Position numbers and translations under genes: made by a program. DNA of 64,000 nt, from positions 1 to 64,000 of the forward strand of contig NZ_AUAZ01000024.1 of NCBI RefSeq assembly GCF_000428985.1, written 5' to 3'. The notes under the pieces were generated by a model. It did no database searches. It saw only the letters and a list, made by a program, of their open reading frames with translations, and was not told where the DNA came from. Source of the stretch: Marinobacterium litorale DSM 23545 (GTDB taxonomy: Bacteria > Pseudomonadota > Gammaproteobacteria > Pseudomonadales > Balneatricaceae). Positions 6,301-37,739 of this stretch are shown here, piece by piece. Numbering within the stretch: position 1 is the first letter of the stretch; every line of letters starts with the position of its first letter.

Positions 6301-9300
6301 ACCACCGCACCATGTCGTTGTTCAACAGCTATATCCGCCACTATCGGGAACCGCTGGCGGTCTGCCGTGACTCGCTACTTGATGCTCACCAGCAGGCGCT
6401 GGATTGCGGCGACATGGAGTGGGGTGCATACGCACTCGCCGCGTACATACAGTACGCGTTCCCGCTGTGCCAGAATCTGGATCAGCTGCAACCGAAACTT
6501 GAAAAAGATACCCGGCTGCTTCGCCAATACGGTCAGAAGCAGTCGCTGCAATACTCGCTGTTCATTCTCCAAACCATGGAAAACATGCGCGGCCAGAACA
6601 ACGACCCGACCCGGCTCGACGGCCGTTTTTACCGCGAGGATCGTGATCTTGCGGAACTCACGCGCGAGAACCACCGTACCGCTATCTGTCTGCACCATTT
6701 CTACAAGGCGTTGCTCAGTTTCATCTTTGGTGACATGGAAGCGGCCTATCATCACAGTGAAATCAGCCTTGAGCTGCGTGACTCCATATCGGGGACCTTT
6801 ACCGTCCTCTGGATCATGATGATCAACGCCTTGAGCATTATCCAGCTACTGCCAAACACCAGCATTCTGACGCAACCGACTCGGCTGAAAACCGTCCGCA
6901 AAGCCCAGCGTTACATCCGCAAACTGGCCCGTTTCGCGCCGGATAACCGCTTGCACCACTATGAGCTGCTCAGCGCTGAGCTGCTTCGCAGCAAGCGGCG
7001 TTACACCAGCGCCATGAACTTATACGAGAAAGCGATTGAGCACGCCCACAGGCAAGGGCTAAAACTCGATCAGGCAATGGCCTGCGAGCTGGCCGGCCGC
7101 TTTTATCAGCAGTGGCAAAAGCCGGGGATTGCGCGCACCTACCTGCTGGATGCCTACCGGCTCTACGCTGAACTCGGCGCCCAGGCCAAGCTGCAACAGA
7201 TGCAGACGCAGTACGATATCGACCTGCCCTCCCCCCACCCGATGGCGGTGGAGTCACGCGCCTCAAGCACGGAGCAGCGCCGCGCGCTGGACAACCAGAC
7301 TCTGGATATCAGCTCGGTGATCAACGCCTCGCAGGCAATCTCCGACGAGATCGTACTGGAAAAGCTGCTGAGTCGGCTGATGCGACTGGCGATTCAGAAC
7401 GCCGGTGCGCAAAGGGCGATACTGGTGATGTACCGTCGGCAGCAGTTGTTCATCGAGGCGGAGACCCGCATCGACGAGGCACCGGCCCTGTTTACCGCCA
7501 TACCACTCACCGACGGTGCGGATATGCTGCCTCTCAGTATCATCAACTTTGTAGCGCGCACCAAAGATCCTGTGGTCCTGGGTAATGCGGTTGAGCATCA
7601 GATGTTCCAGTCAGATGGCTATATCCGCCAGCAACAGCCCCGTTCACTGCTTACCCTGCCGATTCTCTACCACAGCGAACTGACCGGTATTCTCTATCTT
7701 GAGCACCGCGAAAGCCGGGATGTTTTCAGCCGCGAACGCCTGAAAACCTTGCAGATACTATCGGCACAGGCGGCGATTTCCATCGAAAACGCCAAACTTT
7801 ACAAAAGCCTCGAACAATCGGAACGCGAATACCGTTCTCTGTTTGAAAATGCGAGCGAGGGGATCTTCCGCATCGCACCCGACGGTCGCCTGATCTCCGC
7901 GAACCCGGCCCTTATATCGCTGCTGGGCTACGACGCTTGCGAGCAGTTTCTGCACGAGGCCACCGATCTGATTATGGACTGCTTCATCGATCCCGAGCAG
8001 GGACGACAGTTCCTCGCCACCCTGCAAGCCGGGCAGCGCGTCAAAGATCTGGAGACCCGCTGGCGGCGGCAGGATGGCGGCGAGCTGCATGTATCCATAT
8101 CGGCACACCGCATTGCTGACGAGCATGATGCTATTCGCTACTACGAAGGCTCCCTTACCGATATCGGCGAACGGAAGGCTAAAGAGCTGGCGGAACTCGC
8201 TCGCCAGAAAGCAGAAGCGGCGAGCGAAGCCAAGAGCCAGTTCCTGGCCACCATGAGCCACGAAATACGGACCCCGATGAACGGCATTCTTGGTATGGCG
8301 CAACTGCTCAAGCGTTCAACAATGAACCCTTCACAACGTGATCAGGTCGAGTCCATCTACCAGTCGGGCCAGTCCCTGCTGACCATTCTTAACGATGTGT
8401 TGGACTTCACCAAAATCGAAGCGGGTCAGATGACCTTCGAGGCGGAGAATTTCGAGCTACCCCAGTTGCTGAAAAGGCTCAAGACCCTGCTCACGCCCAT
8501 GGCGCGGGAGAAAAAGATCGACCTGATCCTGAGGCTCGACCCCAAGCTGCCCCAAACGGTTCAGGGCGATGCGAGGGCATTGAACCAGGTTCTGATGAAC
8601 TTGTGCACCAACGCCCTGAAGTTCACCGACGCAGGTTATGTGGTGCTCAAAGCTCGTCCCTTAGCGCATGAGGACGCCGGCCACCTGATCCGTTTTGAAG
8701 TCGAAGACAGCGGCATCGGGATCCCACCCGAAGCCCACGAACGTATTTTCCAGCACTTTAGTCAGGCCGACAGTTCGATCACCCGACGTTACGGCGGCAC
8801 AGGACTTGGCCTTTCCATCTGCCGCAAACTGGTCGAAAAACAGCAGGGCCGGATCGGGTTCAACAGCCAGGCAGGTAGCGGCTCACTGTTCTGGGTTGAA
8901 CTGCCCTATCAGGCCGCCGATCAGACCACCGCACCTGAGCCGCCGACGGAGTCCGTCACGCCCAGCGAGCCAAAGCAGACCCTCAGCATATTGCTGGTGG
9001 AAGACACACCCATCAATCAGGAGGTGACCGCCAGCCTGCTGCGCGCAGAAGGCCACCATGTCAGCATCGCGGATGATGGGTACACGGCGCTGTCGATGCA
9101 CAACGACAACGATTACGATCTGGTACTGATGGATATCCATCTGCCCGATATGGATGGACTGGAAACCACCCGCCGCCTGCGTGCCCACCGTGACGCTGAC
9201 AAGGCCAAGGTAACGGTCGTGGCATTAACAGCAGCCGTTACCCGCCCGGAGATAAGACGCTGCAAAGACGCGGGTATTGAAACGGTGCTAAGCAAACCCC

Positions 9301-25789: not shown

Positions 25790-28060
25790 TCAGGCAGACT
25801 CGGCTTCCAGCGCCGCTGCCGTATCGGCTTCGGATAATGCGGTGGCACCGGAGATGAACTCTTCGCCCCAGCGGCGGATATCGTAGTAATTGACGATATC
25901 GTATAGCAAACGCATACGCGTCGCCGCTTCGCTCGGCGGCATCACCAGCCCCTGATAACAGCGCTCGGCCAGGTCGTTAATATCATGGGGGTTGGTTAAC
26001 AAGGCACCATGAAGCTCGGCAGCTGCCCCGGTGAACTCAGACAACACCAACCGTCCGGCACGTTCCGTTAACCCCTGTGTGGCGACAAACTCCTTGGCAA
26101 CCAGGTTAAGACCATCCCGTAGCGGTGTAATCCACATCACATCAGCGCGCTCGTAGAAACTGACCAGCTGCTGGAGTGGGAACCCCCGGTAGTAGTAACG
26201 GATCGGTGTCCAGCCCACCTGGGCAAATCGACCGTTGATCCGGCCCACGGCCTGCTCGATATCGGCCACCAGGTCCTGATACACCTTAATCTCCTGGGCC
26301 GCCGGTACGCAGATGATGACCAGCGTCACCTCATTCTGCATCTCCGGGTGTCGTTCCAGCAGCTTCTCAAAAGCCAATAGCTTGGGCAGAACCCCCTTGG
26401 TGTAGTCCAGCCGTTCCACCGACAGGATCATCTGCCCCTTGTCACCCATCTCCTCCTCCAGCAGCCGACGCTGCTTGCGGTAGGCACGGGAGTCCAGCGC
26501 CTGCTTCATGCGATCCAGATCCAGCCCGACCGGATGCGCACCCAGCCGGATAACACGTTGATCGGTCTCAATCTCCTTGGTCATCTCACCAAGCCCTGCC
26601 GCACAGCCGTAGGTGAGGAAGCGCGGCGCACAGGACTGACGCTCCTGCACGGTAAACGGCATCACGCCACGAACCACATCGACAAAGTTCTCCACCTGGC
26701 GCGGGATATGGAAGCCGACATAGTCACACTGCAAAAGGCTACCCACAATTTCGCGACGCCAAGGCACCACGTTAAAGATATCGGCGGATGGAAAATGGGT
26801 GTGGTGGAAAAAGGCGATCCGCAGATCCGGTCGGCGCTCGCGCAGGTAGGCAGGCACCATCCACAGGTTATAGTCGTGAATCCAGACCAACGCGCCTTCA
26901 GCCGCCTCCTCCGCCGTTTTCTCAGCAAACTTGCGATTCACCTCGCAGAAGATCTCCCAGTGATCTTCGCGGAATTCTGCACGCTCCCAGAAGGTATGGA
27001 GCATGGGCCAGAACGCCTCTTTGGAGAAGCGCTTATAAAAGATATCCACATCATCCTTGTTCAACGGGACACGGGAGCAGATCAGGTTGGGGTAAGCGTC
27101 CTTATCAACACTGGTATGGGTCACAAAGGGTTGCTCGGTACCATCGTCAATACTCCAGGCGATCCAGGCACCGCGAGTTCCGTCCGCGAAGAAACTCAGC
27201 AACGTGGGCAGGATACCGTTCGGCGAGCTGTGAGGCTGACGGCGCACTTTACCGCGCTCCCTCACCTCCTCGTAAGGCAAGCGGTGATAGACCATAACCA
27301 GGTCAGATGTCCCCGGCTTTGCATCCTCGTACCCCTCATGCGCCACACCCTGTGGCCCCAGGAAGCCGAAGTGGCTCATCGCCTCCAGAATCCCGCCACA
27401 GCCGGGTTCTTCGGCATGCAGTATCCAGGCGTTCTTATCCGTTGCCTCCAGCAGGCCGGGCTCGGAATCCCCTACGCAGACGCCTTTGAAGCTGCCATCG
27501 AGCATCGCCAGATCATTCAGTGTATCGCCGGCAGCGAGTACATCATCGCTACTCTCGCCCATAAAGCTCACCAGGCGCTTGAGCGTGGCCCCCTTGTTAG
27601 TGCCTTTAGGCAGAAAATCGAGGTAATGCTCGGCTGAGTACAATAGATCGCAACCGAGTTCCTCGGCTACCCTGTGTACCTCATCGGTGACATCCGAAGG
27701 CTCACAGAACCAGGAGCAGCGACGGGCCTGGGGCACATCCTGACGCTGGATACCGGGGAACTTCGACATCGCTTCAACGATGGGGATTTCTCCGGGCCAG
27801 GTTTCCTCGATCTCATCGAGCAGTTTGGCCACCGGCTGAAGTGTACTGCCTTCAACGACCGTCGCGCCCACATCACAGATAATATATTCAGGCTCGGGTA
27901 TACCGGGGTCCGACAGCAGTGGCATGACCGCCTCCAGGCCTCGACCGGTTACGAACACAAGCCTGATGCCCGGGTGAGCGTTAATCAGCTGATAGAGGCG
28001 TGCTCGGTTTTCGGGTGTCCCGCCAAGAAAGGTGCCATCCAAATCTGTCGCTAAAATCAT
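25790..28060 (-). CDS. ggpPS: bifunctional glucosylglycerol-phosphate synthase/phosphatase
   Basis: A 756-residue fusion. The N-terminal HAD phosphatase (about 1-250; nucleophile motif ILATDLDGTFLGG, later GDTLNDLAML) is followed by a GT20 glycosyltransferase (about 290-730; WIHDYNLWMVPAYLRERRPD, SVERLDYTKGVLPKL, PLRDGLNLVAKEFVA). This domain order is that of the GgpPS enzyme described in halotolerant Pseudomonas. It joins ADP-glucose to glycerol-3-phosphate and removes the phosphate to yield the osmolyte glucosylglycerol. Trehalose-6-phosphate synthase is the alternative, but the fused N-terminal phosphatase favours GgpPS. The ATG at 28060 has AGGAG seven bases upstream. Confidence 0.85.
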   Translation of the reverse strand: MILATDLDGTFLGGTPENRARLYQLINAHPGIRLVFVTGRGLEAVMPLLSDPGIPEPEYIICDVGATVVEGSTLQPVAKLLDEIEETWPGEIPIVEAMSKFPGIQRQDVPQARRCSWFCEPSDVTDEVHRVAEELGCDLLYSAEHYLDFLPKGTNKGATLKRLVSFMGESSDDVLAAGDTLNDLAMLDGSFKGVCVGDSEPGLLEATDKNAWILHAEEPGCGGILEAMSHFGFLGPQGVAHEGYEDAKPGTSDLVMVYHRLPYEEVRERGKVRRQPHSSPNGILPTLLSFFADGTRGAWIAWSIDDGTEQPFVTHTSVDKDAYPNLICSRVPLNKDDVDIFYKRFSKEAFWPMLHTFWERAEFREDHWEIFCEVNRKFAEKTAEEAAEGALVWIHDYNLWMVPAYLRERRPDLRIAFFHHTHFPSADIFNVVPWRREIVGSLLQCDYVGFHIPRQVENFVDVVRGVMPFTVQERQSCAPRFLTYGCAAGLGEMTKEIETDQRVIRLGAHPVGLDLDRMKQALDSRAYRKQRRLLEEEMGDKGQMILSVERLDYTKGVLPKLLAFEKLLERHPEMQNEVTLVIICVPAAQEIKVYQDLVADIEQAVGRINGRFAQVGWTPIRYYYRGFPLQQLVSFYERADVMWITPLRDGLNLVAKEFVATQGLTERAGRLVLSEFTGAAAELHGALLTNPHDINDLAERCYQGLVMPPSEAATRMRLLYDIVNYYDIRRWGEEFISGATALSEADTAAALEAESA

Positions 28061-28129
28061 TACATCACTCCTGTCGAATAAGAAGACGGCCGGATGAGAG
28101 GATTTCTTCAGACAGACTAGCACTCCAGC

Positions 28130-28344: not shown

Positions 28345-29610
28345 TCAGGCTGATTGCGCCTCGCTCTTGCGCATCCGTAACCGATAGGCGTTAGCCTGCA
28401 TCTTCCAACCGGGGAATTCGCCTTTGCAGCCGGTGGACTGAACATAGTCTTCATCCAGCTCGGCGTTTAATTCCAGTGCAAACTCATTGGTGATGGACGG
28501 CAGCAAACTATCCGCAATGTGAGCAGCCGTAAGAGGCGTAAAGCCTTCGCTGACCGCTTCATCCGGTGTGTGGTGCATCAGCACGGCCTCCACAACCTGC
28601 GGCGGGAGATTCCACATATCCAGCAGATATGCGCCGAGCTCGGCATGGGTAACACCATACGCCATACGTTCGACCACATGCAGCGGCAACTCCTTGCGGG
28701 CCGCGTACCTGAGCACTTTGAGGTAACCGTCGCCCTGCTCGGCCGCTAACATCAACATGCCGATATCCAGCAGCAGCCCGGCCAGGAACGCCTGATCCCT
28801 CGCAACTTGAGCCCCTTCATGGGAGCCTGCGATATCCTGTGCCAGTCGCGCTACACTCAGCGCCCGCTCGCTCAAACGCTCAAACGAAAACGCCTGCCAT
28901 TGTGACTGCTCACCGTAATGGGAACGCAAATGCCCTGCCAGCGCCAAACCCCGTACGGTCCGCACACCCAGCAGAGTCAACGCTTCCTGCAGATTGCTGA
29001 TCTTGCGCTGAAGACCGAAATAACTGGAATTGACCAGCTGCATAATACGCGCGGCCAGCGCCGGGTCCCGTTCGACAATGGCCGCGATATCACGGGCATT
29101 AGTATGGTCGGCGGTGACTGCACGGGTGAGCTCACTGTAGATGCCCGGAGGTGACGGTAACTGTCTGAAGGCGGCAAAAGAGCGTACCACCTTATCGCGG
29201 TACAACTGACGGGTAACCGTTACGGTCTGTTCAACCGCGGAGATAACGTCGCGCAGATCACTATTCTGGGTAATGTTACGGTGAGCAACATCGAGCGCCT
29301 TGGCCTGTTTGGAAACGCTGAGCGGCGGAGATAACAGAATACGTGCGACGCGATGATCATAATCGGCGACCCGGCGCAGCACGCCCAGTTCACGTTCAAA
29401 ACTGCTCAGACTCGCGACGATCACCGCATCAAACCGCCCCTCCTGCAGCAGCTCCAGGGCGACCTGCGTATCATCCATTCGCACAATTTGCCAATCGCAA
29501 CCGTGCTCGGCAAGCTCACCGCCCCAGGTGACGAACGCGGAATGCGGGTCGATAAAGAGGATCCTCAGCGGGGTCGGATCACCGGATTGACCGATTGTTG
29601 TCCTGTTCAT
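28345..29610 (-). CDS. receiver-like/HDOD signalling protein
   Basis: A 421-residue protein. Residues about 15-135 form a receiver-like domain (ILFIDPHSAFVTWGGEL...FDAVIVASLSSF) in which the usual phospho-Asp position is not obviously kept. Residues about 145-345 form an HDOD domain (IVERDPALAARIMQLVNSSY, LQEALTLLGVRTVRGLAL), a catalytically silent HD relative used in signalling. AGGAG lies 9 bases before ATG 29610. The leader carries a c-di-GMP-I riboswitch, so its expression should follow cellular c-di-GMP. A motility or biofilm role is likely but unproven. Confidence 0.9.
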   Translation of the reverse strand: MNRTTIGQSGDPTPLRILFIDPHSAFVTWGGELAEHGCDWQIVRMDDTQVALELLQEGRFDAVIVASLSSFERELGVLRRVADYDHRVARILLSPPLSVSKQAKALDVAHRNITQNSDLRDVISAVEQTVTVTRQLYRDKVVRSFAAFRQLPSPPGIYSELTRAVTADHTNARDIAAIVERDPALAARIMQLVNSSYFGLQRKISNLQEALTLLGVRTVRGLALAGHLRSHYGEQSQWQAFSFERLSERALSVARLAQDIAGSHEGAQVARDQAFLAGLLLDIGMLMLAAEQGDGYLKVLRYAARKELPLHVVERMAYGVTHAELGAYLLDMWNLPPQVVEAVLMHHTPDEAVSEGFTPLTAAHIADSLLPSITNEFALELNAELDEDYVQSTGCKGEFPGWKMQANAYRLRMRKSEAQSA

Positions 29611-29748
29611 GATGCGCTACTCCTCGGACACGCTAGACTGCCCGGCGATTATGGCGCTACGAACTGCAGACAGATCCGAGCGCCTCAACTGTAATGTGGC
29701 ATACGTCAGATCCTGGAAGAAGTCGTGGACTAGCAAGCTCACTCTCCT

Positions 29749-29822
29749 TCGACGGCCCAGCCATCCCCAAGGGGGACCTGTGACTTTGCGTCCTCCGGTT
29801 ACCCGAAGTTTGCCCTTGTCGA
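29749..29822 (-). ncRNA. c-di-GMP-I (GEMM) riboswitch in the leader of the HDOD gene
   Basis: Read on the minus strand, the element begins TCGACAAGGGCAAAC. It continues with a hairpin CTTCGG-GTAA-CCGGAG capped by a GNRA tetraloop (29808-29793), then GGACGCAAAGTCACAGGTC, a second helix CCCC-TTGGGG-type, and ATGGCTGGGCCGTCGA. This follows the GEMM consensus: GGGCAAAC, GNRA hairpin, GACGCAAAGyCAC, tetraloop receptor and GCxGGG. TCGAC (29822-29818) pairs with GTCGA (29753-29749) to close the aptamer. About 138 bases separate it from the HDOD start. The expression platform is not clear. Confidence 0.88.
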
Positions 29823-29902
29823 GAAAGGATCCGCTCAGGAAAAACTCCTGTTGAATAAACTATAGCACACGGCTGTTCGAAAATTGAACAACCAAATATG
29901 AA

Positions 29903-30607
29903 TTATCGTTTAAGGTGACGCCCCCCATTCAGGTCCAGCGTCGTGCCGGTCACATAGGGGTTATTCATCAGATAGTTAACCGCCTGAAACACCACATCGG
30001 GGCCCGGCACAATACCCAACGCAGATTTGGACAGCGCTTTTTTGCGGTATTCAGGGGAGTCCCCCTCGTTGAACATGATCAGCGCCGGAGCGATGCTGTT
30101 AACCTTGACCGACGGCGCAAAGCGGCTGGCAAAGCTGAGCGTCAGATTTTCCAACGCCGCCTTGGTGGCGCTGTAGGCGATATGGCGTGGTGAGCCCTGG
30201 CGAGCGATAAAGTCGGTCATATGAATGATGTCAGCAGGCCCCTCCTGATCGAACCAGCGCTCACTGGCCAAATTGATCAGGTAGGGTGCCTGCAGATGAA
30301 CCATAAACATCTGCTGAAAGGCATCAGCACCGGTGCTGTCATCAAGCCAGACCGATGCGTTATGGATCAACGCGCGCAGGCGGGCCTGGCGCCGATCCAG
30401 ACGCTCAATAAAGGATTCGATCCCCGCTTGCGTGGAGAAATCCGCCAGCATCACCTCGATACCCTGCAGTGGCGTATGCTCCCACTCCGCCCGGGGAGCA
30501 CGGCAGGTGATAATGACTCGGTAACCCGCTTCAGCAAACCGCTGGGCACAGTGTAAACCGACACGCTGCGCGCCACCGGTGATTAAAATAGTCTGCTCAA
30601 TACTCAT
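29903..30607 (-). CDS. folM: dihydromonapterin reductase FolM (short-chain dehydrogenase)
   Basis: A 234-residue short-chain dehydrogenase. It has the glycine-rich ILITGGAQRVGLHCA, with Arg replacing the usual Ile/Gly as in FolM/pteridine reductases, and the catalytic Tyr-x3-Lys in HIAYSATKAALENL. FolM reduces dihydromonapterin to tetrahydromonapterin, the cofactor of phenylalanine hydroxylase in Pseudomonas-type bacteria. It is the last gene of a folE-folX-CYTH-folM run and overlaps the CYTH gene by 11 bases, so coupling is tight. Confidence 0.9.
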   Translation of the reverse strand: MSIEQTILITGGAQRVGLHCAQRFAEAGYRVIITCRAPRAEWEHTPLQGIEVMLADFSTQAGIESFIERLDRRQARLRALIHNASVWLDDSTGADAFQQMFMVHLQAPYLINLASERWFDQEGPADIIHMTDFIARQGSPRHIAYSATKAALENLTLSFASRFAPSVKVNSIAPALIMFNEGDSPEYRKKALSKSALGIVPGPDVVFQAVNYLMNNPYVTGTTLDLNGGRHLKR

Positions 30608-31643
30608 CGGTTATCTGCTCCATCAGGGCGAGCAATGCACTGTTGTGCCTGGCCGACAGTGTCGCCTGTGGGTCATTTGACTGGGCGTCCAGCCACTGGC
30701 GTAGATTCAGCGCAGCGTGGCCCAATGTCGGGTGGTGTTCTATCCAGTATTTTAACGCCGTCCGATCATGCCCGGGCAGATTTTGGAGCTCTATGATCAG
30801 CCCTTGCCAAACCGTCCGCAACAACACCGGAGTCGGCAGCTGATCGATGATTCGCTCGATTAGCCGTGCCACTTCAAGTGGGTCATCGGCGGCGGTTCTC
30901 AGCTCAAGGACTGCCGCTTCACCCGCCATGACCAGGCGCTTAACGAGCATCTCCAGCAGCGTAATAATAGATAGCTCCACCTCGCCCGGCGGACGCCCTG
31001 TCGACGGTGGGTTAGCGGCCCGCCCCGGATCAAGCAACCGGAACCCGCGCTCGGCTTTGGCCACATCCAGCGGGCATAAGGGTATCTGCCGGGCGAGTTC
31101 AATGGCGAAAGCCAGCAGCCCCTGCGACTCTCCGGCCCGAAGCTCAAGCTCCAGTTCGCAGATCGGACTGCGCTGGTGACGGGTGCGCACATCGCCCACA
31201 TCCAGGGCCAGCTCGAGCTCTACCGGACTACCCCGCCAGTTCCAGAGTATGGCTACTTTTCTGCGCTCAAAGTCATTACGAAACAGGGGAAGCAGCTTTT
31301 TTCCGGCCAGGGCTTCCCGGATCACCGCTGGCGCGCCATCGATCAGAGCAGGGAGATCCAGCTGTTCCGAGCTGGGATACCAGTCCCACTCCTGGCGCAC
31401 CGACAAGCCGGCCCGGCTATCGCCTCGCCCCTTGAGCGTCTGGATAAACTGGTTGCCATCCCGACGCATCCGCAACGCAAAGCCCGCTTTATCCAGATCC
31501 AGCCCGGCTGTGTCGAAGTACTGGTTATAGAGCCTGACCTGCTGCCAGCCAGAGTGCTGATACCGGGTTATAAGAGGAAGGGTCTTGAGCGAGTCGACCA
31601 AGCCTCGGGGAAGCGCCAACTTAATTTCGGTTTCAACTAACAC
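30597..31643 (-). CDS. CYTH-domain triphosphate tunnel hydrolase
   Basis: A 348-residue protein with an N-terminal CYTH (triphosphate tunnel) domain: the ExExK signature VETEIKL at residues 3-9, ALRMRRDGNQFIQTLKGRG, and alternating acidic strands VELELALDVGD and ICELELELRAGE that bind metal. The C-terminal third is helical and may be a degenerate CHAD-like module. E. coli YgiF, a relative, is an inorganic triphosphatase. Translation starts at GTG 31643. Lying between folX and folM, it may hydrolyse a pterin triphosphate. That is inference from position. Confidence 0.85.
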   Translation of the reverse strand: MLVETEIKLALPRGLVDSLKTLPLITRYQHSGWQQVRLYNQYFDTAGLDLDKAGFALRMRRDGNQFIQTLKGRGDSRAGLSVRQEWDWYPSSEQLDLPALIDGAPAVIREALAGKKLLPLFRNDFERRKVAILWNWRGSPVELELALDVGDVRTRHQRSPICELELELRAGESQGLLAFAIELARQIPLCPLDVAKAERGFRLLDPGRAANPPSTGRPPGEVELSIITLLEMLVKRLVMAGEAAVLELRTAADDPLEVARLIERIIDQLPTPVLLRTVWQGLIIELQNLPGHDRTALKYWIEHHPTLGHAALNLRQWLDAQSNDPQATLSARHNSALLALMEQITDEY

Positions 31644-31690
31644 GATCGTTCCACTCTCCGTCAGGCGAACCGCGGGTTTGGCTGAGAACC

Positions 31691-32065
31691 TTAATCGCGG
31701 CTGTCGCAGAGCGTAATTGAAACCGAGTCTGCAAAACGCAGCGCATGGGGCTTATCGATCTCAACTTCCGCATAACAGACCATCGGGTCTTCCATGACCA
31801 AGCCCAGAACCTCGCTGGCCAGTCGCTCCAGCAACAAAAAGCGACCATCTTCTACATGATTGATGATCGCCTTATTGATCGTGCGGTAGTTCAAGGCATG
31901 ATCGATATCGTTATGGGTGATTGCCCCATTGACCCGATAGCGCAGCAGGACGTTGATCACGATATCCTGTTGTTTCTGCTTTTCCTCCTCGTTGATCCCG
32001 ATAAAGGTTCGCAACCGGAGGTTCTTTATTTTGATGGTCGCCTGTCCTGGCTGTGCCTGCTTCAT
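31691..32065 (-). CDS. folX: dihydroneopterin triphosphate 2'-epimerase FolX
   Basis: A 124-residue tunnelling-fold pterin enzyme of the FolB/FolX type ([19 protein letters not shown], a Lys-containing [13 protein letters not shown]-like stretch, [20 protein letters not shown]). The ATG at 32065 shares a base with the folE stop (TAATG); the longer frame to 32188 would lie inside folE. FolX, not FolB, is favoured by the company of folE and folM. It epimerises dihydroneopterin triphosphate to the monapterin form. Confidence 0.88.
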
Positions 32066-32622
32066 TATCCACGCCCTATCAACTGCAGAAATTCCTGCCG
32101 AGTGGTATTGGATTCCCGGAACGCGCCGAGCATTACCGACGAACTCATCACCGAGTTCTGCTTCTCGACACCGCGCATCATCATACACATGTGCTGAGCC
32201 TCGATCACGACACCGACCCCGGCGGCACCGGTAACGCCTTGAATCGCCTCGGCAATCTCAAGTGTCAGGTTCTCCTGAATCTGCAACCGGCGGGCGAACA
32301 TGTCAACGATACGGGCGATCTTTGACAACCCCAGAACACGACCGGTGGGGATATAAGCAACGTGCGCCTTGCCCACAAAGGGCAACAGATGATGTTCGCA
32401 CAGGGAGTAGAGTTCAACATCCTTGACGATCACCATTTCATCATTGTTGGTGGGAAACAGCGCGCCATTCACAACCTCTTCGAGGCTCTTGTCATAGCCG
32501 TTGCAAAGGTAAGCCATCGCTTTGGCGGCGCGCTTAGGTGTATCGCGTAATCCATCTCGGTTCAGGTCTTCGCCCAAACCTTCAATTATCTGGGCGTAGC
32601 AGCCCTGCAGTGCCTCGCTCAT
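32065..32622 (-). CDS. folE: GTP cyclohydrolase I FolE
   Basis: A 185-residue type I GTP cyclohydrolase that makes dihydroneopterin triphosphate from GTP. Zinc and catalytic residues are visible in [20 protein letters not shown] and [12 protein letters not shown], with the substrate loop [26 protein letters not shown] precedes ATG 32622. It heads the pterin operon and is followed by folX with a one-base overlap. It is probably a dedicated copy for tetrahydromonapterin; a second folE for folate may exist elsewhere. Confidence 0.93.
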
Positions 32623-32695
32623 ACTGTCCCCTCGCCTTCCGGCTAGCTTGTCCGTATATTGGTGCGAGGATTTACGCTTGAAGCTGAGCTTCGGT

Positions 32696-33337
32696 TCAGT
32701 CCGGTGAGCGGTTAACCGGCTGCAGGCGCACTCCCTGCTTGAGCACGACCATAATCGACTCTACGATCTGGTCCGCCCTGTCGGCGATGGAAAAACAATC
32801 GGGACGCTGTAACCAGCTCATCAGAACCCCTTCCAGCATCACCTTGATCATCAACGAGCCTGCGTCGGGATCCAGATCGGCGGGCAACTGCCCCTTGCGC
32901 ATGGCGTTCTCCAATGTGCGGCGGCGTTTCTGGTGAAGTTCTTCCTGAAATTGTTTGATTCGATCCGGAATATCCTGCCCCCAGACAGCGCTCTCCCGGG
33001 AGCACATCACAATCATGCGACGAAAACCTTCATCGTTTTCCATTTTAAACAGCACCAGATGGAAAAGCTGGGCAAGTTTGCCCAGTGGGTCTGCCTCATC
33101 CTCCGCCTGGCTTGCCTCACCCAACGCGTTAATGGGTCCGGAGTAGTGCTGCCAGATCGCATCGAACAGATCCCACTTATTTTTAAAGTGCCAATAGATC
33201 GCACCCCGGGTTACCCCCGCTGCTCGAGCGATACCGGTCAGACTGGTCGCAGCGATGCCTTGTCGGGCGAAGAGCTCAAGGGCTACAGACATAATCTGTA
33301 ACCGGGTCTGCTCCGCTTCTTCTTTTGTTCTACGCAA
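32696..33337 (-). CDS. ttgR: TetR-family repressor of the RND pump (TtgR/AcrR-like)
   Basis: A 213-residue TetR protein that starts [14 protein letters not shown] and continues [20 protein letters not shown] and [18 protein letters not shown], the signature HTH of AcrR/TtgR/MexR-type efflux repressors. The start is TTG at 33337 with AAGAG upstream; there is no ATG before the HTH. It is divergent from the RND pump, with a perfect palindrome between. In P. putida TtgR is released by flavonoids, antibiotics and aromatic solvents. The ligand here is unknown. Confidence 0.9.
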
Positions 33338-33370
33338 TACTTGACTCTTTACCTAAGTTTTCGATGTCAT

Positions 33371-33406
33371 TCAGTTTACATACAAACGTGATTGTATGTA
33401 AACTGA
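33371..33406. promoter_or_regulatory. TtgR/AcrR-type operator
   Basis: TCAGTTTACATACA (33371-33384) and TGTATGTAAACTGA (33393-33406) form a perfect 14-bp inverted repeat with an 8-base spacer. The core TACATACA...TGTATGTA matches the E. coli AcrR operator core as I recall it. It sits 56 bases upstream of the pump operon start and 34 upstream of the repressor start, so it can control both. Confidence 0.85.
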
Positions 33407-33461
33407 GCCATCAGCTGGGCTATTCCCCACCTCTAATCGATACCGTCTTTTCGAGGAACAC

Positions 33462-34610
33462 ATGGACAGACTAATTGCATCACTCAAACGCTGGCCGACA
33501 TTGGCACTGGTCATCGGCGGCGCGTTTCTGGCAGGGTGCCAGGACTCCAGCGAACAACAGCAGCAGGGAGCTGCACCTCCTCCTCCGGCCGTTGAGTTCG
33601 TTACCCTCCAGACCGAGTCAGTCAACATCAGTGAAACCTATTCCGGCCGGGTAACGGCTTATCGCAGCGCTGAAATTCGCCCGCAGGTCAGCGGCATCAT
33701 TCTTGAGCGCGCGTTCGAAGAGGGTGCCCGCGTCGAGGCCGGCGACCTGCTCTATCAGATCGACCCGGCGGTATATGAAGCAGAACTGGCTGCGGCCAGA
33801 AGCGAGCTGGCACTGGCCCGCGCCAACGCGGAGAGCGCTCGCCTGCTGGCCGAGCGTTACGCCAGCCTGGTAAAAACGTCCGCGGTGAGCCAACAGGAAG
33901 CGGATGATGCATCAGCCGCCTGGAAACAGGCCCAGGCTCAGATTCAAGCGGCTGAAGCCGCGGTTAAACGGGCCCAGATCGATCTGGACTACACCCGTAT
34001 TACCGCGCCCATAGCCGGTATTATCAGCCGTTCCAACGTTACCGAAGGTGCACTGGTATCCGCTCAGCAAAGTACCGCTCTGGCACGGGTCCATCAACTG
34101 TCACCGGTGTACGTGGATATCCGCCAGCCCGCTTCAGCCTTGCTCAAGCTCAAGCGTGACAGCGGCGTGCCGGAAACCAGCATTCAGGTCAGCCTGGATG
34201 ACGGCACAACCTACCCTGAAACCGGCACGCTGAAATTTGCCGAAAGTCAGGTGGATCAGGATACCGGCACCGTTAACATCCGTGCGCTGTTTAACAACAG
34301 TGACGAATGGCTGCTACCCGGCATGTTTGTGCGCGCCAGCGTAGTGATCGAGCAACTCGACAATGCGATTCTTGCGCCGCAGCCCGGCATCATCCGTCAG
34401 CCTAATGGTGCCGCTTCTGCGATGGTCATTACCGAAGAGGACAAAGTGGAATCCCGCCCGGTCAGCGTCGGACGAGCCATCGGTAATAAGTGGCTGGTCA
34501 ATGACGGATTGCAGGCGGGTGATCGCATTATCGTCAAAGGTCTGCAGAAAGTTTCACCGGGCGCGCAGGTCACACCTCAACCGGCCCAGGGCGACAGCGA
34601 AAGCCGTTAA
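33462..34610 (+). CDS. ttgA: RND efflux periplasmic adaptor (AcrA/MexA/TtgA family)
   Basis: A 382-residue membrane-fusion protein. It has a lipoprotein signal (LVIGGAFLAGC; acylated Cys about residue 27), the lipoyl/barrel-sandwich halves (AYRSAEIRPQVSGIILERAF, TRITAPIAGIISRSNVTEGA), a coiled-coil hairpin (about 95-165) and a beta-barrel. It links the inner-membrane pump to the outer-membrane channel. It is the first gene of a three-gene pump operon. The symbol follows the TtgABC naming by similarity and context and is not proof of toluene export. Confidence 0.9.
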   Translation: MDRLIASLKRWPTLALVIGGAFLAGCQDSSEQQQQGAAPPPPAVEFVTLQTESVNISETYSGRVTAYRSAEIRPQVSGIILERAFEEGARVEAGDLLYQIDPAVYEAELAAARSELALARANAESARLLAERYASLVKTSAVSQQEADDASAAWKQAQAQIQAAEAAVKRAQIDLDYTRITAPIAGIISRSNVTEGALVSAQQSTALARVHQLSPVYVDIRQPASALLKLKRDSGVPETSIQVSLDDGTTYPETGTLKFAESQVDQDTGTVNIRALFNNSDEWLLPGMFVRASVVIEQLDNAILAPQPGIIRQPNGAASAMVITEEDKVESRPVSVGRAIGNKWLVNDGLQAGDRIIVKGLQKVSPGAQVTPQPAQGDSESR

Positions 34611-34622
34611 GGAGCAGCATTC

Positions 34623-37600
34623 ATGGCCAGATTTTTTATCGACAGGCCCATTTTCGCCTGGGTGATCGCTATTGTGATCATGCTGGCGGGTGCGCTGTCG
34701 ATCCTCAAGCTTCCGATTCAGCAGTACCCGAGTATTGCACCGCCATCCGTGCGGGTCAGCGCCACCTACCCCGGCGCTTCGGCCCAGACGCTGGAAAACA
34801 GCGTAACGCAAGTGATCGAACAGAGCATGACCGGCCTCGATGGTCTGCTTTATATGTCATCCCAAAGCAGCAGCTCAGGCAGCGTTCAGATCACACTGAC
34901 CTTTGCCGCCGAAACCGATCCGGACATCGCCCAGGTTCAGGTTCAGAACAAGCTATCCCAGGCTGAACCCCTGCTACCGACAGCTGTTCAGCAACAGGGG
35001 GTTCGTGTTACCAAGGGCAACACATCCTTCCTGATGGTTATCGGCCTGGTATCCCCGGACGGGACCATGAACCGTGCCGATTTGGCGGACTACGCCGAGA
35101 GTCAGCTCAAGGATACGCTGTCCCGAACACAGGGCGTGGGGGATATCCGTATTTTTGGCGGTCAGTACGCCATGCGGATATGGCTCAAGCCGGATCGTCT
35201 GGCGGCTTACAACCTGACGCCGGTAGAGGTGAACGCGGCCATCGCCTCACAGAATAACCAGTTTGCGGCCGGTCAGCTCGGCGGGCTGCCCGCTGTTGAT
35301 GATCAGCAGCTCAACGCCACCATCATCTCCCAGACCCGGCTGACCGATACCAGTCAGTTCGAGAATATCCTGCTCAAAGTAAACAGCGATGGCTCCCAGG
35401 TTCGCCTGCGCGATGTGGCCCGCATCGAGCTCGGTGCTCAGGACTACTCTGTAGTCAGCCGCTTTAACGGTAAACCCGCAGCCGGTCTTGCCGTGCAGCT
35501 GGCCAGTGGTGCGAACGCGCTGGATACCGCCGACGCCGTCAAAGCGCGCATCGCAGAGCTCGAACCCTTCTTCCCGCCCGGCATGGAGGTGGTTTACCCC
35601 TACGACACTACGCCGTTCGTCGAAATCTCCATTACCGAGGTTGTAAAAACACTGGGTGAGGCGATCCTGCTTGTCTTCCTGGTGATGTACCTGTTCCTGG
35701 GTAATTTCCGCGCCACGCTGATTCCCTCTATCGCTGTACCGGTCGTACTGCTGGGTACGTTCGGTGTTATGGCGGCCTTCGGCTACAGCATCAACACACT
35801 GACTATGTTCGGTATGGTCCTGGCCATCGGCCTGCTGGTGGATGATGCCATCGTGGTCGTGGAGAACGTGGAACGTGTCATGCACGAAGATGGCCTCAGC
35901 CCACTGGAGGCCACCCGCAAGTCGATGGATCAGATTACCAGCGCCCTGATCGGTATCGGACTGGTGCTGTCGGCCGTGTTCGTTCCCATGGCGTTTTTCG
36001 GCGGATCTACCGGTGCCATCTACCGCCAGTTCTCACTGACCATCGTCTCGGCCATGGCACTGTCGGTGCTGGTCGCTCTGATTCTGACGCCCGCACTGTG
36101 TGCGACGATTCTCAAGCCAGCCAAACCAGGCCATGGTAAGCAGAAAGGGTTCTTTGGCTGGTTTAACCGGACCTTCAACCGAGCCACCGATGGCTACAAG
36201 CGTGGCGTTGGCGGCACCATGAAGCGCCCGGTGCGGATGTTGATTGTCTATCTGGTTCTGGTGTCTGGTCTGGGTTACCTCTATGTACGCATGCCCACCG
36301 CCTTCCTGCCCAACGAAGACCAGGGCGTCTTCCTGACACTGGTTCAGCTGCCGGCTGGCGCCACGCAGGAACGGACCCTGGATGTCATGAAGCAGATCGA
36401 AGGCTTTGCCGAGCAGGAAGAGGCGATCAACTCACTGTTCACCGTGTCCGGCTTCAGCTTTGCCGGTCAAGGTCAGAACATGGGCCTGGCATTTATTCAG
36501 CTCAAGGACTGGTCTGAACGTACCGAGCCCGGTCAATCCGTGCAGGCGGTGATCGGCCGCGCCTGGGGCGCCTTCAGCCAGATCAAGGATGCCCGGGTAT
36601 TCCCGATCAATCTGCCTCCGATCCCGGAATTGGGTACGGCATCCGGTTTCGACCTGATGCTTCAGGACCGGGGTAATATCGGCCATGACGCGCTGCTTGC
36701 TGCCCGTAATCAGATGCTGGGCATGTCCGCTCAGGACCCTCGCGTCACCGGCGTGCGCCCCAACGGTATGGAGGATGTGCCTATTTTCCGGATCGATCTC
36801 GATTACGAGAAGATCAAGGCTATGGGGATCAACATCGAAGACGTAAACAGCACCCTGAGTACCGGTTGGGCCTCAACCTACGTCAACGATTTTGTTGACC
36901 GCGGTCGCGTCAAGAAGGTCTATGTACAGGGCGAAGCCTCTTCACGCATGCTGCCCGAAGATATCAACGAGTGGTATGTCCGCAATAACGCGGGCGATAT
37001 GGTGCCCTTCTCCGCCTTTGCCACCAGTTACTGGGACTACGGATCGCCGCGCCTGGAGCGTTACAACGGCGTACCCGCCATGAACCTGCAGGGTCAGGCC
37101 GGGCCCGGATTCAGTACCGGTGATGCCATGGCGGCCATGGAGGAGATGCTGACCAAACTGCCACCGGGTGTGGGCCTGGAGTGGACCGGCATGTCGTTCC
37201 AGGAAAAGATGGCCGGTGCTCAAGCGCCCGCTCTCTATGGACTTTCGTTGCTGGTTGTCTTCCTCTGTCTGGCGGCCCTGTATGAAAGCTGGTCGGTGCC
37301 GTTCTCGGTCATGCTGGTTGTGCCGCTGGGGGTCCTGGGCGCGCTACTTGCTGCTACTCTGCGCGGGCTGGACAACGATGTGTACTTCCAGGTGGGTCTG
37401 TTGACGACCATCGGTCTTTCGGCGAAGAACGCGATACTGATCGTGGAATTCGCCAAAGCACTCTATGATCAGGGCTATGATCTCTGGGAAGCCACGGTGG
37501 AAGCCGCCCGTATGCGTCTGCGTCCGATTATCATGACCTCCATGGCGTTTATCCTGGGTGTTACGCCATTGGCGCTGAGCACCGGCGCTGGCGCTGTGAG

Positions 37601-37739
37601 CCGTCAGGCGATCGGTACCGGCGTTATCGGCGGGATGTTGGCGGCGACCTTCCTGGCGATCTTCTTCGTTCCCATGTTCTACTTGCTGGTGATGAAACTG
37701 ACCAAAGCCCGTCGCCACACAACGGAGGCTCGCCCATGA
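34623..37739 (+). CDS. ttgB: RND efflux inner-membrane pump (AcrB/MexB/TtgB family)
   Basis: A 1038-residue proton-driven pump of the hydrophobe/amphiphile efflux-1 group. It has the N-terminal [20 protein letters not shown], the proton-relay Asp pair in [18 protein letters not shown], the later Lys-containing [19 protein letters not shown], and two large periplasmic loops. It captures drugs or solvents from the periplasm and membrane for export through the outer-membrane channel. AGGAG precedes ATG 34623. It overlaps the next gene by ATGA. Next to a toluene-oxidation cluster, solvent extrusion is a reasonable role. Confidence 0.95.

Follow-up and report, generated by a model that had tools for sequence, protein, structure and literature searches.

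Tetrahydromonapterin operons raise the question of which enzyme takes the phosphates off dihydroneopterin or dihydromonapterin triphosphate, a removal that is a step of folate as well as reduced-pterin synthesis. We examined this question at a locus of Marinobacterium litorale DSM 23545, in a stretch of 64,000 nucleotides (contig NZ_AUAZ01000024.1, positions 1 to 64,000; hereafter the window), in which a gene for a protein of the CYTH family lies between folX and folM. The order is folE-folX-CYTH-folM, all on the minus strand (32622-29903), and both folX and folM of the tetrahydromonapterin pathway are assigned by NCBIfam models over their cut-offs (NF008418 and NF005066). A reading made by a model from the DNA alone (hereafter the sequence-only reading) had reported this order with overlaps of 1 and 11 bases, and had put the CYTH protein forward as a good candidate for the missing phosphatase. 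The coordinates bear out the arrangement: the ATG of folX at 32065 meets the folE stop with 1 base in common, CYTH and folM overlap by 11 bases (30597-30607), and 47 bases separate folX from CYTH. We propose, with a probability of roughly one half, that tetrahydromonapterin synthesis has recruited a triphosphate tunnel hydrolase in the form of the CYTH protein, whose putative substrate, products and role are set out below. This interpretation appears plausible and is grounded in comparative genomics.

Papers are cited here by their PMC numbers and from extracts of their text. The dephosphorylation step was drawn as the work of an "unidentified phosphatase" in a review of 2026 (PMC13259868). 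A paper of 2007 called the folQ gene missing from the majority of genomes, at that time also from E. coli, and named the HDIG protein FolQ2 as another candidate (PMC1971073). FolQ/NudB, which belongs to the Nudix family, and the predicted HDIG protein FolQ2 have been proposed for the same pathway step, and FolQ and FolQ2 were, like the CYTH protein, first inferred from gene clustering (PMC1971073). The Nudix enzymes remove pyrophosphate (PMC1971073), while the tunnel triphosphatases, a different family, release phosphate (PMC4641920). No paper linking CYTH with pterin synthesis was found in a literature search that had most subscription papers outside its coverage.

Conservation of the folX-CYTH-folM triplet in Marinobacterium and its family

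The triplet was found in 9 of 57 genomes, the window genome included (G000, 4.38 Mb, of which the window is contig C23). Eight of them, G000-G007, are all members of the genus group Marinobacterium as defined by the search tool (species named Marinobacterium elsewhere may fall outside it), and the ninth, G009, represents another genus of the same family. A start codon giving an overlap of 4-14 bases between CYTH and folM is available in all eight Marinobacterium genomes, and the two genes are separated by at least 135 bases in G009. The flanks of the triplet vary: acrR precedes it and an HDOD gene follows it in G007, an HDOD gene follows it in G002, G003 and G004, and a multicopper oxidase gene on the opposite strand comes after folM in G005. 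Given the nine genomes, the varying flanks and the overlap-giving start codon throughout Marinobacterium, the order of the locus is more than chance.

Within the genus, folE adjoins folX in the window genome only. The other seven Marinobacterium genomes contain no folE in the stretch of 12-15 kb examined around the triplet and carry it elsewhere. All 13 genomes checked possess folE, and the window genome has an additional copy at G000:C8:74447-74980. In G009, a short folE remnant was detected just upstream of folX (locus L044, about 8887-9123; an open reading frame of 78 residues, 49% identical over 79 columns), suggesting that the ancestral cluster contained folE. A second FolB-family gene occurs elsewhere in seven of the eight Marinobacterium genomes; that of the window genome is at G000:C3:99671-100000.

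A scan of the family detected the CYTH type found beside the pterin genes (fol-type) in 9 of 116 genomes with scores of 371-518 bits, the next match scoring 255 bits. No pterin gene was present within 1.5 kb at any of the 21 other loci examined out of the 35 lower matches listed, and PiT/DUF47 or argE genes stood beside CYTH at 16 of these 21. All eight Marinobacterium and G009 possess a second CYTH gene, located at a PiT/DUF47 locus in the four genomes examined (G000, G001, G005 and G009); in the window genome (L001, G000:C7:112797) it adjoins the genes for DUF47 and the PiT phosphate transporter.

Occurrence beyond the family

Overall, CYTH genes linked to pterin genes were found in 12 genomes (G000-G007, G009, G413, G414 and G854), namely all eight Marinobacterium, G009 from elsewhere in the family, two Marinobacter (of 124 scanned) and a metagenome-assembled genome (MAG). 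The sequence-only reading had held that it would be refuted if the CYTH-folM adjacency proved unique to this genome, and these occurrences show that it is not unique. From a scan of named genome contigs, which gave 137 loci, the best 80 were evaluated. Two peptide patterns were used, of which one contains V82, a residue of the fol-type proteins, so that the scan leans towards them. Nine CYTHs among these 80 had pterin genes beside them (seven Marinobacterium, on contigs already counted above, Marinobacter alexandrii L076 and the MAG L080), and argE, PiT or DUF47 was near the other 71.

In M. alexandrii, CYTH is followed by folM, and folE lies about 6.5 kb upstream, the intervening genes resembling those of a branched-chain dehydrogenase (named by eye). 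The MAG, labelled Colwellia (G414), shows a distinct arrangement, folE-CYTH-SDR-FolB/FolX-like, followed by a panC-like gene (by eye). Its SDR protein comes nearest to PRK09134 and the pteridine-reductase models but reaches neither the folM nor the pteridine-reductase cut-off, and the folM clade does not include it. The FolB/FolX-like protein scores 72.5 against the cut-off of 72.15 for TIGR00525 (folB) and lies below the folX cut-off, that is, between the folB and folX models. The cluster folE, 83% identical to the window folE, is the only folE found in this MAG; the other linked genomes checked carry one elsewhere.

In Marinobacter, a second, fol-type CYTH was found in 2 of 124 genomes (497 and 354 bits; next match 172), M. 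alexandrii and G854, and folM follows directly in both. None of the 28 other loci examined, out of 121 lower matches, had a pterin gene within 1.5 kb. As G854 was found after the rule of CYTH-pterin linkage had been formed, it serves as an independent check.

In a sample of the order, 76 of 390 genomes have folM over the cut-off and 162 of 390 have CYTH (E up to 1e-20). When the two were joined by coordinates, 2 of the 76 had no CYTH match and 5 had a weak CYTH of unlisted place; when these and the 2 adjacent cases, discussed below, are set aside, no CYTH and folM of the same contig lie closer together than about 54 kb. folM is present in all 19 genomes whose CYTH is of the high-scoring type, against 57 of the 371 others, which is weak evidence because the 19 are mostly of one lineage (17 belong to the Pseudomonas family). 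A sample of the class contained CYTH (E up to 1e-25) in 41 of 369 genomes, and among the 30 loci examined pterin genes were within 1.5 kb at the window locus only. From the order, class, family and genus searches together, the arrangement is therefore uncommon and confined to a single clade of CYTHs, every member of which found here adjoins pterin genes.

Phylogenetic position of the fol-linked CYTH

The 12 linked CYTHs fell on one side of a branch with support of 95/80 in the tree including G854, separated from 44 other rows (among which two genes are duplicated, L015/L051 and L017/L052). They grouped with the CYTHs of the Pseudomonadaceae type with support of 100/100, and were far in the tree from the second Marinobacterium copy. 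The 10 linked folM sequences, M. alexandrii included, formed a clade with support of 100/96 in a tree that was calculated without the G854 folM. As linked CYTHs and linked folMs each form a clade, the pair probably moved together. We infer that the fol-linked CYTH arose from the type that stands at the argE/PiT/DUF47 locus in Pseudomonadaceae, and that it was passed on jointly with folM.

Fold and active site of the CYTH protein

CYTH (PF01928) is the one Pfam match of the window protein and the only family listed at E up to 1, with no match to a Nudix family. FolE, FolX and FolM all exceed NCBIfam cut-offs, and the CYTH protein has no NCBIfam match. Its AlphaFold model (mean pLDDT 84.1) predicts an eight-stranded tunnel fold, and the best PDB matches of the model are tunnel enzymes, with full-length E. 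coli YgiF (CYTH plus CHAD; PDB 5A60/5A61) aligned over 325 residues (Foldseek E 1.6e-20; Z 31.3, rmsd 3.3). By the model, the two proteins may have the same two-domain architecture, as the C-terminal part is also aligned (residues 1-346 on 1-383). They differ in that identity in the structural alignment is 23%, that the window protein has no Pfam CHAD match, as is the case for all 8 CYTH proteins scanned, that its gene belongs to a pterin operon, and that YgiF is specific for inorganic tripolyphosphate (PMC3440374). The C-terminal part is missing in the copy of Marinobacterium G004.

The ExExK signature claimed by the sequence-only reading is present as E4-x-E6-x-K8. E4, E6, K8, R58, R60, K71, E163, E165 and E167 are invariant in the 12 linked, 16 Pseudomonadaceae-type and 28 other rows. 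The equivalents of YgiF E4, E6, R56, K69, E160 and E162 (PMC4641920) are kept in the linked CYTHs; by reading of the alignment, the Glu pair of the metal site, E165/E167, and R58 correspond to YgiF E160, E162 and R56. The Pseudomonadaceae-type CYTHs (for example L109 and L043) are the closest group in sequence, with W33, Q41, D62, W134, R169 and P191 common to all 12 linked and all 16 Pseudomonadaceae-type rows. The two types differ at position 82 (V in 12/12 linked, E in 16/16 Pseudomonadaceae-type rows) and at position 51 (A in 15/16 Pseudomonadaceae-type rows, D in 9/12 linked rows); the L043 protein has 458 residues and that of the window 348.

The dN/dS of the tunnel domain was 0.07, 0.22 and 0.33 in three pairs, the first value being unreliable because dS was near 2 and saturated. 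The C-terminal part is looser (0.23, 0.42 and 0.72), and CYTH evolves faster than folX and folM.

The motif rules of PMC8233210 class the protein as a predicted hydrolase, not a cyclase. A class IV adenylate cyclase carries HFxxxxExExK, has the first Arg of RxR replaced by a small residue and has Ala in place of the second Glu of ExE, none of which is seen here. Assignment as a thiamine triphosphatase was also rejected by the same rules, as the W/YxRxR motif with its stacking residue is replaced by A56 in all 12 linked rows.

Proposed role in tetrahydromonapterin synthesis

In the pathway that we favor, FolE would make dihydroneopterin triphosphate, and FolX would epimerize it to dihydromonapterin triphosphate. 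The CYTH enzyme would hydrolyze dihydromonapterin (or dihydroneopterin) triphosphate in its metal-loaded tunnel, releasing the terminal phosphate by analogy with thiamine triphosphatase. A general or second phosphatase would remove the remaining phosphates, and FolM would reduce the dihydromonapterin. Removal of the terminal phosphate appears the most likely reaction on account of the motif rules, the common catalytic centre and the precedent of the mammalian thiamine triphosphatase (5A64), a tunnel enzyme that converts a small organic triphosphate to the diphosphate (PMC4641920). Tunnel enzymes mostly have one common catalytic centre, their tunnel entries set the substrate, and many of their reactions are likely undiscovered (PMC4641920). 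As the known tunnel triphosphatases release one terminal phosphate, the CYTH enzyme would probably start, not complete, the dephosphorylation, and completing it alone seems unlikely.

The nudB gene was assigned in E. coli after 2007. The cut-off of the NudB model NF006961 was exceeded in 0 of 57 genomes and in 1 of 14 controls, and the former count is in favor of the proposal. The sequence-only reading had suggested a survey of whether CYTH-folM adjacency anticorrelates with nudB. With NudB over the cut-off in none of the 57 genomes there is no contrast, and with weak Nudix matches in all 57 the comparison is uninformative. The candidacy of the CYTH protein is supported by the conserved adjacency, the clade found only in pterin clusters, its apparent travel with folM between families and the kept catalytic residues, and draws no support from the nudB comparison.

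Several points weigh against this proposal. One phosphate released per turnover would leave a diphosphate, and an organic substrate would need a shift in specificity, because YgiF hydrolyzes inorganic tripolyphosphate (PPPi), and thiamine triphosphate slowly, and not ATP, ITP or GTP (PMC3440374). In place of the aromatic WxRxR of thiamine triphosphatases the protein has A56-x-R58-x-R60, and the positions that set the linked clade apart are without a known role. A diverged Nudix enzyme, of the kind detected by the weak matches, could serve instead. Support for the linked clade was only 56/75 when G854 was left out. By the positions listed, CYTH is adjacent to folM in only 2 of the 76 folM genomes of the order sample (G000 and G001), and in the near sample, 9 of the 18 genomes with folM over the cut-off lack an adjoining CYTH. 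A light-induced folM-folE-folX operon is described for Pseudomonas mendocina, with no mention of CYTH in the extract (PMC9758184). Finally, phenylalanine hydroxylase was found in only one of the eight Marinobacterium.

At the nine folM loci without CYTH, no recurrent partner gene was seen among the neighbors in stretches of 7.8-10 kb, in a search that was not systematic. Pfam was applied to eight selected neighbors, and the three from these loci gave a calcineurin-like phosphoesterase (G049, L065), DUF4345 and no match. Phenylalanine hydroxylase was considered as the reason for the operon and dismissed: PF00351 occurs in 3 of 13 genomes (G005, G009 and G024), which leaves the cluster in most Marinobacterium unexplained.

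Alternative explanations

The most serious alternative, which we consider rather unlikely, is that the CYTH protein is still an inorganic tripolyphosphatase like YgiF, and that its place next to folM is an old chance insertion kept by translational coupling and joint transfer. The closest solved relative is indeed YgiF (E 5.8e-17), the catalytic residues are common to CYTHs at other loci, and the linked clade neighbors the CYTHs of the Pseudomonadaceae argE/PiT/DUF47 locus in the tree; the faster evolution of CYTH than of folX and folM, with its loosely kept C-terminal part, also fits. However, the linked CYTH gene occurs in three arrangements (folX-CYTH-folM, CYTH-folM, and folE-CYTH-reductase-folX-like, the last with a reductase and a FolB/FolX-like protein that are both dissimilar to those of the other loci). 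The linkage has been kept though the flanks differ, and all eight Marinobacterium and G009 have the second CYTH, at the PiT/DUF47 locus in the four examined.

It is improbable, in our view, that the CYTH protein acts on GTP or dihydroneopterin triphosphate as a drain or control valve, limiting flux or feeding the folate branch and not specific to monapterin. Such a role would suit the presence of folE in the clusters of the window and L080, and folate synthesis requires the same dephosphorylation, whereas in the remaining seven Marinobacterium the gene is accompanied by folX and folM and has no folE in its vicinity, and the second FolB-family gene is located elsewhere in 7/8 Marinobacterium.

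We give still less weight to a CYTH protein that clears PPPi left by an elimination-type pterin enzyme (pyruvoyl-tetrahydropterin synthase, QueD-like) and does not act on the pterin. Pterin enzymes that release PPPi exist, and the chemistry would be YgiF-like, yet the clusters encode enzymes of the FolE, FolX and FolM types, none of which, to our knowledge, releases PPPi.

A class IV adenylate (or other) cyclase is strongly disfavored: the CYTH family includes CyaB, and the fold is common to both (3n0z; Z 14.7, rmsd 3.0, 160 aligned), but ExExK lacks the preceding HF motif, with only three residues before E4, and R58 and E167, both of which cyclases replace (PMC8233210), are kept.

Surroundings of the locus

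Table 1. Features of the operon and its neighbors in the window (positions from the first nucleotide of the window).
Feature	Position	Strand	Basis or remark
folE, GTP cyclohydrolase I	32065..32622	minus	TIGR00063 and NF006825 over cut-off; second folE copy of the genome
folX, dihydroneopterin triphosphate 2'-epimerase	31691..32065	minus	NF008418, 185.8 bits (cut-off 152)
CYTH gene, GTG start	30597..31643	minus	PF01928, 78.5 bits (cut-off 23.2)
CYTH tunnel domain, residues 1-206	31026..31643	minus	PF01928; model and PDB matches; ExExK, R58/R60, K71, E163/E165/E167
C-terminal helical part of the CYTH protein	30597..31025	minus	model aligns with the CHAD domain of YgiF; no Pfam CHAD match
folM, dihydromonapterin reductase	29903..30607	minus	NF005066, 306.9 bits (cut-off 249)
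TetR/AcrR-like gene	32696-33337		upstream of folE
HDOD gene	28345-29610		downstream of folM

A scan of 29500-33600 gave 4 promoter-like sites where 1.9 were expected, and 5 terminator-like sites where the expectation was 3.5. Directly upstream of folE, an AcrR-like TetR gene is accompanied by divergent genes for an AcrA-like protein and an AcrB-like protein of 1038 residues (32696-37739; names partly by eye), and the same TetR gene precedes folX in G007. Further downstream, a gene at 25790-28123 (minus strand) encodes a glucosylglycerol-phosphate synthase (TIGR02398 over the cut-off) fused N-terminally to a sucrose-phosphatase-like HAD domain, perhaps a compatible-solute pathway in one protein.

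In the gap that separates folM from the HDOD gene lies a cyclic di-GMP (c-di-GMP)-I riboswitch (RF01051, 56.9 bits; 29748-29824, minus strand). The four other Marinobacterium with HDOD after folM (L037, L038, L040 and L045) have a riboswitch of that clan at the corresponding place, and scans of the five remaining linked loci (L039, L041, L042, L044 and L250) found none. In G854, the CYTH-folM pair is followed by a gene for a PAS-GGDEF-EAL protein (L250:9151-12639). The riboswitch and this neighbor recall the link of pterin and c-di-GMP by PruA-PruR-DcpA (PMC13259868).

Implications

As a bolder speculation, which we regard as improbable, the fol-linked clade would have an activity new to CYTH proteins, the phosphohydrolysis of pterin triphosphates, and the related proteins of Pseudomonadaceae at argE/PiT/DUF47 loci would perform it as well, supplying the missing step of tetrahydromonapterin synthesis in pseudomonads too; entry of the pterin by the cyclase side of the tunnel might even allow cleavage at the alpha-beta bond, with pyrophosphate leaving in a single step. 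If the more restrained proposal of a tunnel hydrolase recruited to the tetrahydromonapterin pathway is true, this hydrolase would be another, unrelated type of enzyme for the step beside the Nudix FolQ/NudB and the predicted HDIG FolQ2, and the CYTH family would gain a new natural substrate. It would also bear on pterin-controlled c-di-GMP signaling, in which the same step is blank.

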